This document shows, piece after piece, positions 11,245 to 14,775 of a DNA stretch of 35,033 nucleotides. The DNA comes from Chitinophagaceae bacterium T5-Br10_B2g13 (GTDB lineage Bacteria > Bacteroidota > Rhodothermia > Balneolales > Balneolaceae). Location of the stretch: NCBI GenBank assembly GCA_001564065.1, contig LKNA01000030.1:1-35033 (forward strand). The letters are read 5' to 3'. Position 1 is the first letter of the stretch. Each line of letters starts with the position of its first letter. The position numbers were made by a program, and so were the translations under genes. The notes under the pieces were generated by a model. That model was not told the DNA's origin and made no database searches. It saw nothing but the letters and a program-made list of their open reading frames with translations.

Positions 11245-11604
11245 TTACTCTTCAATGTCCAGATCTTCCTGTTGTGGAACAGCAGACTGTGTTTGGGACG
11301 GTACAGAAAATTCAGATGGATCAACGTTTTCCATTGCAGATTGCTGAATGGTGCTTTGTCCGCCATCACCGCGATCAATTGCAAAATTGGCCAGTACACT
11401 CAATCCAAGAAAGAGTGCTGCTAAAATTGATGTTGTTTTAGAGAGCAGATCCGCAGTTCTGCGTGCACCCATGGATGCACCGCCGGCCATTCCTGCCGCC
11501 AGTCCGCCTGACAAACCCTCTTTTTGTCCCGGCTGAAGCAGAACAACTACAATGAGTAAAAAACAAATTAGCGTAATAACCGCAACTATAATTCCGTATA
11601 ACAT
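11245..11604 (-). CDS. secG: Preprotein translocase subunit SecG
   Basis: SecG is the small accessory subunit of the SecYEG protein-export channel in the inner membrane. The 119-residue product has two membrane helices (about 3-23 and 56-75). Between them is the conserved cytosolic loop LLQPGQKEGLSGGLAAGMAGGASMGARRTADLLSK, close to the family QxGKGGGLSG pattern. The C-terminal tail is acidic and Gln-rich, as is common in this group. The gene is a single unit with its own terminator, 125 bases downstream of the SRAP-like gene. Confidence 0.93.
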   Translation of the reverse strand: MLYGIIVAVITLICFLLIVVVLLQPGQKEGLSGGLAAGMAGGASMGARRTADLLSKTTSILAALFLGLSVLANFAIDRGDGGQSTIQQSAMENVDPSEFSVPSQTQSAVPQQEDLDIEE

Positions 11605-11729: not shown

Positions 11730-12353
11730 CTATTTGGGGATTGGCTGGATCAACTTTTCGTCGTTATTTGATGGGTTATTTACCTTTTCGCTCACCCGAA
11801 GCACAGACAGGTCGGTAAGCAAAAACAGCTTCTTTGCTTTTTCGATAATTTCCGTTGTTTCTTCCTCTTTCTTGATCCCAAGCCATTTAAATGACAGCTC
11901 TCTGTTCAGTAAAACCGGCATTGTTTCCGACATTGGATTTATTAATACATTTGATGGAATGGTAATCAATTTGAAATAGCCTTCTTTGGTATTATACACA
12001 CCGGCCGCTACCATTAATGGATCATTGATCATCCGAACAAAAAAGGGACTTCCCTTCTCTTTGTCGTCTTTCCAGATATAAAAACCGCTTAAAGGTACAG
12101 CGCAACTGATAAAATCTTTTTTAGAAATCAGATTAGCTGCATTTTCAGATTCAATTGTAGTTTCTGAACTTTCTTCTTCTCCCCACCTCACTCTCTCAAT
12201 CGAATGCTCACCATCGCTCTTAAAAACAATTGGAATATGATGACCTGAAGATAAATTGTAGTGGGGTTCAAATATATTTTTCCGGTTCGACTCTAAATTA
12301 AAATAGTTCTCAATGGATTCTTTACCGGCAAAGAAAGCGACTCGTTTAGCCAT
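11730..12353 (-). CDS. SRAP (HMCES/YedK)-family protein lacking the catalytic residues
   Basis: The 207-residue sequence follows the SOS-response-associated-peptidase fold along its length. HYNLSSGHHIPIVF (31-44) matches the RYNIAPTQ region, VRWG (55-58) the RWG motif, SCAVPLSGFYIW (83-94) the RCLIPADGFYEW motif, and SETMPVLL (142-149) the HDRMPVIL motif. Active members crosslink abasic sites through Cys2, aided by a Glu and a His. Here residue 2 is Ala, the Glu position is Ile93 and the His position is Ser142. It is therefore probably unable to form the DNA-protein crosslink and may bind DNA or have another role. It is divergent from the CPBP protease gene. Confidence 0.8.
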   Translation of the reverse strand: MAKRVAFFAGKESIENYFNLESNRKNIFEPHYNLSSGHHIPIVFKSDGEHSIERVRWGEEESSETTIESENAANLISKKDFISCAVPLSGFYIWKDDKEKGSPFFVRMINDPLMVAAGVYNTKEGYFKLITIPSNVLINPMSETMPVLLNRELSFKWLGIKKEEETTEIIEKAKKLFLLTDLSVLRVSEKVNNPSNNDEKLIQPIPK

Positions 12354-12437: not shown

Positions 12438-13301
12438 GTGAAAACCCTCTTTTTTAGCTCCTACGAAAATCGGCTACGCTCATTTTGGAGAATATTGATT
12501 GTTACCGCCATCCTGCTCACCTCCATTGCAGTTCTGGGGCTTTGGGGTTTTAGCGGATATGGGTTTACGATTGTATTGGCCTTCGTTATGATCGCAATTC
12601 TTTGGTTTGGTTCCCGAAAACTGGATCGACGGCCCATATCAGAGTACGGCATTAAATTTAAAAAAAGCTGGTTTATCGATTTTTTTGCCGGAAATGTGCT
12701 CGCCGCACTTGCTATGGGAGGCATAGTACTGATACACATTGGCATGGGTTGGGTTGAAATTCGGTTTGAACAGTTCACGCGACCTTCCGATGGATTTTAT
12801 CTTGGGTTGGGTTTAACTCTAATTTTCATGGCTGCAGTCAGTTTTTGGGAAGAGACTTATTTTAGAGGATATCTGATTCGAAATTTGCAGGAAGGACTGC
12901 ATTTTAAAAAATCCGGCAAATCACTTGCCGTTATCGCTGCCGTTATAGTATCCTCTCTGCTCTTTGGGTTAACACACCTCGGTAATCCCAATGCCTCCTG
13001 GATATCAACTTTAAACATATCTATTGCTGGAATGGTGTTCGCTTATCCTTATATTATAACCAAGAGTTTAGCCATTCCACTTGGAATGCATCTCTCCTGG
13101 AATTATTTTCAGGGCGCGGTTTTTGGATTACCGGTTAGCGGCAATCAATTTGAACATATGCTGATGGTTGCAGAGACTACCGGACCCGAAACTTTTACGG
13201 GAGGGAATTTCGGTCCAGAAGCAGGAGCAGCCGGTTTACTGGGGCTGATGATTCTGCTTACATTGAATGAAATCTACTTAACCGTTTTTTATAATAATTA
13301 A
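12438..13301 (+). CDS. CPBP (Abi/CAAX-type) intramembrane metalloprotease
   Basis: A 287-residue integral membrane protein with about seven to eight hydrophobic segments. It carries the CPBP motifs: EETYFR with Glu138, Glu139 and Arg143, His180 in the second motif (GLTHLGNP), and His218 in HLSWNYFQG. These form the metal-dependent active site of Rce1-like proteases in bacterial membranes. Substrates are unknown; some family members protect against self-bacteriocins. The start is GTG at 12438 with no convincing ribosome binding site. It is divergent from the SRAP-like gene, 84 bases away; a small TTCTAT/ATAGAA inverted repeat (12394-12409) lies between them. Confidence 0.88.
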   Translation: MKTLFFSSYENRLRSFWRILIVTAILLTSIAVLGLWGFSGYGFTIVLAFVMIAILWFGSRKLDRRPISEYGIKFKKSWFIDFFAGNVLAALAMGGIVLIHIGMGWVEIRFEQFTRPSDGFYLGLGLTLIFMAAVSFWEETYFRGYLIRNLQEGLHFKKSGKSLAVIAAVIVSSLLFGLTHLGNPNASWISTLNISIAGMVFAYPYIITKSLAIPLGMHLSWNYFQGAVFGLPVSGNQFEHMLMVAETTGPETFTGGNFGPEAGAAGLLGLMILLTLNEIYLTVFYNN

Positions 13302-13401
13302 AGTAAATGGCTGCCTGTACTATTCAGGGCTGAGCCATAAGCCGGACAGTTGGCCCGGTATTTTGAATTGAAATTTTGACTAAATAAGTGAGGATATAAC
13401 G

Positions 13402-14775
13402 TTGTCGTTTAATCAGTTTCGACTAAGTTCCGATATTTTGAAGGGGTTGAAAGATGTTAAGATTGAAAGCCCCTCACAACTACAAAAGAAAATTTTTAAA
13501 GCTGTTCAGGAAGGTTCCGATCTCGTAATTAATACCAAAACAGAGGATAAGCCGGAAGTTGGCTATCTAATTAACCTGTTGAACGAGATTGCTAAATCAG
13601 ATCGCCGGCAGGGCACTAAAGGGATTATTTTAGCCCCCGATAGTGAGCGCGCAAAATTTCTGGATGAATGGATCTGGGCCATTGGCTACCATGCGTCCAT
13701 AGAGAGCGCCTGCATCACTTCTGATGACGATCCAAAAAAACAGCTGAATGCACTATCTGCCGGGCCGGTAGTAGTTGTTGCTACTCCTTCAGAATTAGCC
13801 GGTTTACTTGAAGACGGCAAGATAATTTTCAGGGAAGTTCAGCAGCTCATTGTTGATCAGGCGGAACAGGTTGAAGACTGGGAGGCAGTCGACAATGTGT
13901 CAACGCGAATTATCAGTAAGTGCCAGCGTATTTTTACAGCTGCCAAAGACAGCAAAGAGCTGCGGAAAGCAGAAGACAGACTACTTACAGACCCTGAACT
14001 GGTAACGCTCGCTAAAAAATCTTCAGCCGATAAACCAGCTGAAAAAGCTAAAGAGCCTAAAATCACAAAAGATCTTACTCAGTACTACATCAATGTGCCC
14101 CCAAGGTCAAAGATCTCTACATTGATGGCTCACCTGGACAACAATAAAACAGATACTGTTGTTATTTTTACTGCATCCAGGAGAACCGCAGACCGTCTCT
14201 ATAAAATCTTGAGAAAGAGCAATCGAAGAGCAGTCAGTGTTCATCAACAATTAAATGAAGAGACTTTTAACGAACGTTTTAACCGATTTACCACAGGTGA
14301 TGTACAGCACCTGATTATTGGTGATATGACCGCAAAGGACCTTCCCTTAGAGCACGCAACACAAGTTATCAATTACGATGTGCCTGAAGATGTAAACGAA
14401 TACAAACTTCGTGCTGAGCTCGTAGGTGACGGCAAAGCGACTCGCATACTTTCTCTCGTATCAAAACAGGACAGAAATGATATTCAGGCTATATGTAAAT
14501 CGCTTGGATACGCGCCCGAAGAAGTTCCGCTGCCAAAAAGTGTGAAGGACAAAATATCTTCCGGTAAGAAAGGGAAAAAGAAAAGCGGGAAGCCCGGCAA
14601 GACCCGAAACAACAATCACAAAAAGAGTAAAAAGAAAGGCAGCAAACAGAGAGAGAGCAGAAAGCACCACGGACTACCGCGCCCAACTTTTGATCAGTTA
14701 GAAGGTGGGAGAACCGGTAAGAAGAAAGAAGAGAAAAAGGGTATTGTAGGGTTTTTTAAAAAGCTCTTTTCTTGA
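13402..14775 (+). CDS. Degenerate DEAD-box helicase-like protein with basic tail
   Basis: A 457-residue protein laid out like a DEAD-box RNA helicase with its key motifs lost. The Q-motif region with Gln28 is recognisable (LKGLKDVKIESPSQLQ). Motif I reads NTKTEDKP (44-51) in place of AxTGSGKT. Motif II is DQAE (151-154) in place of DEAD. Motif III SAT is replaced by TAA, and motif VI (Y334 onward) has lost the HRxGRxGR arginines. The RecA-like second domain (VVIFTASRRTADRLYKIL, VINYDVPEDV) is retained. A Lys/Gly-rich tail from about residue 388 would bind RNA. ATP hydrolysis is unlikely. Start: TTG at 13402 with GAGG 8 bases upstream. Confidence 0.8.
   Translation: MSFNQFRLSSDILKGLKDVKIESPSQLQKKIFKAVQEGSDLVINTKTEDKPEVGYLINLLNEIAKSDRRQGTKGIILAPDSERAKFLDEWIWAIGYHASIESACITSDDDPKKQLNALSAGPVVVVATPSELAGLLEDGKIIFREVQQLIVDQAEQVEDWEAVDNVSTRIISKCQRIFTAAKDSKELRKAEDRLLTDPELVTLAKKSSADKPAEKAKEPKITKDLTQYYINVPPRSKISTLMAHLDNNKTDTVVIFTASRRTADRLYKILRKSNRRAVSVHQQLNEETFNERFNRFTTGDVQHLIIGDMTAKDLPLEHATQVINYDVPEDVNEYKLRAELVGDGKATRILSLVSKQDRNDIQAICKSLGYAPEEVPLPKSVKDKISSGKKGKKKSGKPGKTRNNNHKKSKKKGSKQRESRKHHGLPRPTFDQLEGGRTGKKKEEKKGIVGFFKKLFS

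Follow-up and report, generated by a model that had tools for sequence, protein, structure and literature searches.

A DEAD-box pseudohelicase conserved in the Balneolaceae has apparently lost its ATPase site

The 35,033-nucleotide stretch of DNA analyzed here (the window) encodes a DEAD-box protein whose ATPase activity is, on the evidence of its motifs, lost. The explanation that we favor, and hold to be reasonably but not strongly probable from the sequence comparisons below, is that the protein is a DEAD-box pseudohelicase that came from the duplication of an RhlE-type helicase, was fixed in the Balneolaceae and is kept for a role in RNA metabolism as a scaffold or adaptor that needs no ATP. 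The gene occupies positions 13402–14775 of the forward strand, on which all of its features given below lie, as an uninterrupted frame of 457 codons with a TTG start and a TGA stop that encodes 457 residues; the window holds no alternative in-frame start 5′ of the TTG. Pfam matches to DEAD (1.4e-11) and Helicase_C (5e-11) both exceed the curated cut-offs. An earlier, sequence-only reading of this gene was right in its overall observation that an intact 457-codon frame encodes a DEAD-box fold in which the ATPase site is destroyed. Its interpretation stands in part, as a pseudo-helicase under selection is what we find, while the motif II string DQAE is not the lesion it was taken to be.

The protein has the expected two RecA-like domains. 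Domain 1 (residues 1–204; 13402–14013) carries the Q motif and motifs I to III, and Gln28 of the Q motif, which the earlier reading had picked out, is present in the window protein, as in 57 of 60 homologues. This set comprises 60 distinct full-length sequences from loci L001–L090, and omits loci L091–L146, which are largely the same genes, and two contig-edge fragments (L025 and L066). Motif I had been read as NTKTEDKP; the loss of the P-loop holds, but alignment to intact paralogues places the counterpart of AQTGTGKT one residue further on, at TKTEDKPE (residues 45–52; 13534–13557). The Walker A pattern [AG]x4GK[ST] occurs in 0/60 homologues, and in 20/60 the P-loop region is also shortened, with a gap at residue 51. 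All homologues scoring above 295 bits are without AxTGxGKT, and the top P-loop-bearing sequence scores 292 bits. Motif II is indeed DQAE in the window protein (residues 152–155; 13855–13866), as had been noted. The same string is found in only 23/60 homologues, however, with DEAH in 15/60, DEAD in 1/60 and other strings in the remainder. As Walker A is gone from all 60 and DExD/H is still retained in 17, motif II appears to drift in a protein that is already without a P-loop, and we reject DQAE both as the key inactivating lesion and as a diagnostic mark. For motif III, the alignment puts the position of SAT at residues 180–182 (13939–13947), where the protein reads AAK and not the TAA proposed earlier.

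Losses in the rest of the protein follow the same pattern. The motif Ia arginine R81 is lost in 59/60 homologues and the GG at 107–108 is gone too. In the degenerate motif V region (residues 303–317; 14308–14352), R312 is lost in 60/60 and G313 in 59/60. The earlier reading had listed none of these losses in motif Ia, the GG or motif V. The motif VI remnant, LRAELVGD (residues 336–343; 14407–14430), keeps its first arginine; H336 is lost in 60/60, R340 in 59/60 and R343 in 58/60. The arginines of motif VI had been described as missing, which is true of R340 and R343 but not of R337, the arginine of HR, kept here and in 57/60. Set against an active DEAD-box helicase, the protein thus has the two RecA domains and the Q-motif glutamine, and is without motif I, the DEAD of motif II, the ARGxD of motif V and the HRxGRxxR of motif VI. 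The RhlE proteins of the family (n = 29) have 128 fixed positions, and only 20 of these persist at 95% or more in 57 homologues. We considered a cryptic enzyme that binds nucleotide in a different way, through Q28 and D152. The persistence of Q28 (57/60), of D152 (56/60) and of DExD/H (17/60) speaks for such an enzyme; the missing Walker A, the shortened loop and the near-complete loss of the later motif VI arginines speak against it, and we judge it very unlikely.

The host genome is a metagenome assembly of 258 contigs, 97.6% complete and with an estimated contamination of 8.87%, and gene decay or a fault in assembly therefore has to be weighed as an explanation. Identical losses are seen in orthologues from the isolate genomes of Rhodohalobacter halophilus JZ3C29 (L005), R. 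sulfatireducens WB101 (L009) and Gracilimonas mengyeensis (L054), so that sequencing or binning error is not their cause. The frames are open, and the absence of Walker A and of the motif V arginine is shared by every homologue across genera. Comparison of 19 congeners gives 171 pairs, and for the 12 closest of these dN/dS (Nei–Gojobori) is 0.07–0.12, far from 1; the values are approximate because dS exceeds 1 in all of the pairs listed. From these observations, together with the conserved tail and ribosome binding site described below, we reject decay or assembly error, to which we give almost no chance, and conclude that the pseudohelicase is under strong purifying selection. The earlier reading, which had argued against simple decay and had proposed selection and shared losses as checks, is borne out on each of these points. 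One orthologue (L039) has a tail end unrelated to the others, probably through a frameshift in its last codons, and is the one sequence that would favor decay.

Selection appears to hold the second RecA domain and the tail rather than the ATP site. Domain 2 (residues 226–380; 14077–14541) is the better conserved half, with 37 positions at 97% identity or more compared with 8 in domain 1. Of these 37 positions, 22 are not equally fixed in RhlE and are thus newly fixed in the family, among them I230, P233, R235, S259, R265, R292, E333, D360, P372 and E374. Over the same genomes and pairs, dN of both RecA domains (0.05–0.20) is of the same order as that of active RhlE (0.02–0.16), and across congener pairs the tail of the pseudohelicase is steadier than the tail of RhlE.

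Of 92 Balneolaceae genomes, 81 carry the orthologue, which is matched at E ≤ 1e-90 in 79 and present as a contig-edge fragment in two (G002 and G081). None was detected in the other 11 family genomes (G001, G076, G086, G095, G096, G097, G099, G100, G101, G104 and G105). Most of these are incomplete or small; G097, however, is 98% complete, and the protein is therefore not essential in every lineage. Outside the family, 0/36 other genomes of the order have a match at E ≤ 1e-90, the best (in G110, 9e-87) having intact motifs. A sample of 395 genomes from the phylum, with at most four candidates scored per genome, gave 45 matches at E ≤ 1e-80, all of them from Balneolaceae, and 0/349 genomes outside the family have one; seven of these 349 are also among the 36. 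A scan of named genomes at E ≤ 1e-80 gave 56 loci (L091–L146) with 36–82% identity in the best segment, and the carriers include Rhodohalobacter halophilus, R. sulfatireducens, Fodinibius roseus, F. sediminis, Gracilimonas mengyeensis and Balneola sp. EhC07. The remaining 23 loci of that scan, mostly from other phyla, show 21–26% identity and have intact P-loops.

The gene order secG–mscS–SRAP–CAAX protease–pseudohelicase is conserved over 61 loci in 61 genomes. SRAP is seen at 46 of these loci, secG at 39, the CAAX protease at 38 and mscS at 33, counts taken over loci many of which end early at contig ends or short flanks. In the window, where mscS is absent, the neighbors are the CAAX-type (Rce1-like) membrane protease (12438–13301, forward strand), the SRAP protein (11730–12353, reverse strand) and secG (11245–11604, reverse strand; Pfam SecG, 7.8e-17). 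All three were named through Pfam, which gave no RNA-related neighbor, and we report them as context with no role in function implied. The pseudohelicase is a family trait, inherited vertically at this one locus. A divergent genus, g28 (L073–L075), keeps most of the gene order, with SRAP not detected, and at the same locus has a very divergent pseudohelicase on a long branch that has lost Q28, D152 and R337.

Besides the pseudohelicase, the host genome encodes L002 (29% identity) and L003 (22%), both of them DEAD-box proteins whose motifs are intact. In a tree of 44 rows from which the motif columns were left out, the 20 homologues included split off as a single group (100/100), which falls together with the order's RhlE proteins (99/97); a union with Balneolaceae RhlE is neither rejected (AU p 0.36) nor shown. 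Descent by duplication from the order's RhlE-type helicases is the best explanation of these results. The active RhlE proteins (L002, L026–L032, L076, L081–L090 and L170–L188) have a TTG aligned with the start of the pseudohelicase in 29/29 family sequences and 8/8 others, and no Shine–Dalgarno (SD) sequence.

Structure prediction returns two RecA folds, as the earlier reading had expected, in the same overall fold as RhlE/CshA-type helicases; with a pTM of 0.48, the relative placement of the two domains is uncertain. The linker between them (residues 205–225; 14014–14076) is predicted at low confidence, with pLDDT below 50 over residues 205–224. In Balneola and Gracilimonas orthologues (L041–L049 and L077–L080) this linker is long and acidic, with repeats of the type KLEEASVxVVLNPE.

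The residues of a DEAD-box core that canonically contact RNA are the arginine of motif Ia, the GG, the GD of motif IVa, and the T and RG of motif V. Most of them are lost here, which makes RNA binding by the helicase core doubtful, and the mean net charge in the 60 homologues, –8.4 for domain 1 and 0.0 for domain 2, does not favor it either. RNA binding through the canonical core is thus not upheld. The tail (residues 381–457; 14542–14772), which is predicted at low confidence, is a plausible RNA binder, as the earlier reading had proposed for it. It is basic, with 36% K+R in the window protein and a mean of 34% among the homologues, and it carries two motifs, LPRPTYDxLSGGR and a final GxxGxxKKLF. 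In the window protein the first of these is LPRPTFDQLEGGR (residues 425–437; 14674–14712). Both are found by pattern in 55/60 homologues, and an end of the form [KR]xxF in 59/60.

The extreme C-terminus, KGIVGFFKKLF (residues 446–456; 14737–14769), is predicted to be helical over residues 449–456 and to be amphipathic, with a hydrophobic moment of 0.74, taken as the best 11-residue window within the last 18 residues. Across the 60 homologues, the mean moment is 0.69 and the net charge +2.2, compared with a mean of 0.44 and a 95th percentile of 0.63 for 284 control C-termini, a set that includes mutual orthologues. When these 18 residues are shuffled, about 5% of the shuffles on average match the moment of the helix, and its amphipathicity is thus modest. 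The 22-residue tail end matches nothing in the PDB sequences up to an E-value of 10. The end of E. coli MinD, EEEKKGFLKRLFGG, and that of the window protein, KKEEKKGIVGFFKKLFS, are both basic, amphipathic and placed at the extreme C-terminus; the likeness is one of short motifs known here from sequence, and we claim no homology. PMC11964227 describes the use of short linear motifs by the helicases and RNase E of other bacteria, and a membrane-targeting helix in RNase E. Membrane tethering is probably the role of the terminal helix, with docking on a protein also possible.

A similar terminal helix, with sequences such as KPAKGVWGIIKSF and GIWGKIKNLF, is found at the end of active RhlE proteins, both in the Balneolaceae and in the order's other families. 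Because the helix is shared, the pseudohelicase could share a dock with RhlE, be it the membrane, a ribonuclease or the ribosome, and act there as a regulatory subunit or competitor that tunes the recruitment of RhlE or pairs with it. The common descent of the two proteins and the finding of an RhlE paralogue in 19/19 congeners fit this alternative; the genes are not co-localized, and we consider it rather unlikely.

Under the scaffold reading, an RhlE-type helicase would have been duplicated, and the copy would have lost its ATP pocket and then been kept by selection. Domain 2 would serve as a docking surface and the basic tail would hold RNA, while the terminal helix would tether the protein to the inner membrane in the manner of MinD or dock it on a partner shared with RhlE. 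The protein could in this way place RNA or ribosome precursors near active machinery without unwinding. Taken together, these features suggest a scaffold or regulator and not an engine.

The ribosome binding site that the earlier reading had called good is real, and is unusual for the genomes of the host family. An SD core, AGGA (13391–13394), lies 11 bases 5′ of the start codon in the window, identified by its sequence, its conserved position and a pairing energy of –7.3 kcal/mol with the 16S tail. AGG[TAG] is found at –10 to –12 in 59/60 homologues compared with 2/27 RhlE paralogues. Pairing with the 16S tail has a mean of –9.0 kcal/mol (range –5.6 to –15.1), with 56/59 homologues at –7.0 or below, compared with a mean of –1.7 kcal/mol for RhlE (n = 29). 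Orthologous neighbors reach –7 far less often: SRAP in 1/46, secG in 2/39, the CAAX protease in 4/38, mscS in 0/33, the aminotransferase in 0/22 and SSF in 1/12. For the CAAX protease, SSF and random positions, the value assigned to no pairing inflates the means, and only the counts at –7 or below are used; this value was capped at 0 for rpsU and for the gene counts that follow. By this measure, SD sequences are no commoner than chance in G080 (18/155 genes; 16% of random positions), in G023 (18/126; 21%) or in the window (3/30; 18%), with genes called by a program that prefers ATG and so misses the TTG at which the G080 orthologue starts. The SD of the pseudohelicase is thus a conserved oddity in SD-poor genomes.

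An SD of this kind raises the possibility that the pseudohelicase is a 30S assembly factor whose translation is increased by ribosomes with an exposed anti-SD tail, such as 30S subunits that lack bS21. According to PMC9976891, the proteins bS21, bS18 and bS6 sequester the 16S tail in Bacteroidia, and strong SDs respond when bS21 is lost. The fixed position of the SD agrees with this proposal, as does the finding that in three of seven Balneolaceae (G042, G065 and G080) rpsU is preceded by an extended SD, of –14.9 to –17.0 kcal/mol. Utp25, a pseudohelicase of the DEAD-box type in the small-subunit processome of yeast (PMC9539457), offers a precedent. Against it, rpsU is without an SD (0 to –2.0 kcal/mol) in three Rhodohalobacter genomes, including that of the window (G000, G011 and G023), and in one Fodinibius (G048), and the pseudohelicase keeps its SD there regardless. 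A simple link to bS21 is therefore weakened for Rhodohalobacter, where the pseudohelicase SD is also only about –7 kcal/mol, a value reached by chance at about a fifth of positions. Within the window, this SD ranks third of 30 with a longer 16S tail and first of 30 with a shorter one. Furthermore, anti-SD sequestration is known from Bacteroidia and only assumed in Balneolaceae, and we regard this assembly role, like the regulation of RhlE, as a minority alternative to a scaffold. The split in the rpsU SD itself suggests that the proposed autoregulation by bS21 was gained or lost inside the Balneolaceae.

The elements above can also be combined, in a version that we think improbable and offer on sequence grounds: a membrane-tethered, ATP-dead DEAD-box protein, its SD/TTG leader translated by 30S subunits with an exposed anti-SD (immature or bS21-less), would hold ribosome or RNA precursors at the membrane, next to active RhlE. 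If true, this ribosome-state switch would mean that a bacterial pseudohelicase takes part in a feedback loop that controls the assembly of the small subunit.

Accounts of how DEAD-box proteins work usually rest on clamping and release driven by ATP. In the present case, an entire family of mostly salt-loving bacteria has a fixed DEAD-box paralogue that appears incapable of ATP-driven clamping by any known mechanism, which provides a natural case for asking what the DEAD-box fold does without ATP. Its conserved SD in SD-poor genomes is likewise a handle on the SD as a regulatory code outside rpsU, and the role of the protein is open to experiment because orthologues occur in cultured isolates.

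The nearest parallel for the SD is the rpsU of Bacteroidia, which keeps a strong SD in genomes that otherwise do not use SDs (PMC9976891); the pseudohelicase differs in being another gene, in starting with TTG and in pairing more weakly in most cases. For the protein, both features that mark Utp25 and Deinococcus radiodurans PriA as pseudohelicases are seen, namely a helicase fold with motifs lost and conservation under selection. D. radiodurans PriA is the only PriA of its lineage, whereas the pseudohelicase described here is an extra paralogue. Both cases came from our search of the open-access literature (pseudohelicase; inactive or degenerate bacterial DEAD-box; Balneolaceae helicase), whose listings showed no bacterial DEAD-box pseudohelicase. 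PMC4504706 describes PriA as a bacterial protein with a lineage-wide loss of helicase motifs and retained binding roles; it is a DNA replication-restart protein and not a DEAD-box protein. Utp25/Def of the eukaryotic small-subunit processome is described in PMC9539457 as conserved, with a DEAD-box fold, vestigial motifs without a DEAD and a disordered accessory region; unlike the protein here, it is eukaryotic, its disordered part is N-terminal and it is essential in yeast. UTP25 models are absent from the Pfam matches of the window protein (E up to 1), Pfam being the one means by which this sequence relation was compared. What is new here is the set of family-specific residues in domain 2, the basic tail with its amphipathic helix and the SD at a fixed position before a TTG start.

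RhlE and CshA helicases are the best curated matches, and they share the fold and, for the RhlE of the order, the terminal helix; the pseudohelicase differs in having no P-loop, motif V or arginine fingers. The NCBIfam scores (CshA, 137.2 bits against a cut-off of 646; RhlE, 108 against 743) fall far below the equivalog level. Additionally, the frame of another DEAD-box paralogue runs across a single stop codon in each of three genomes (G005:C4:369560-370810, G023:C2:404316-405584 and G006:C18:44273-45559).
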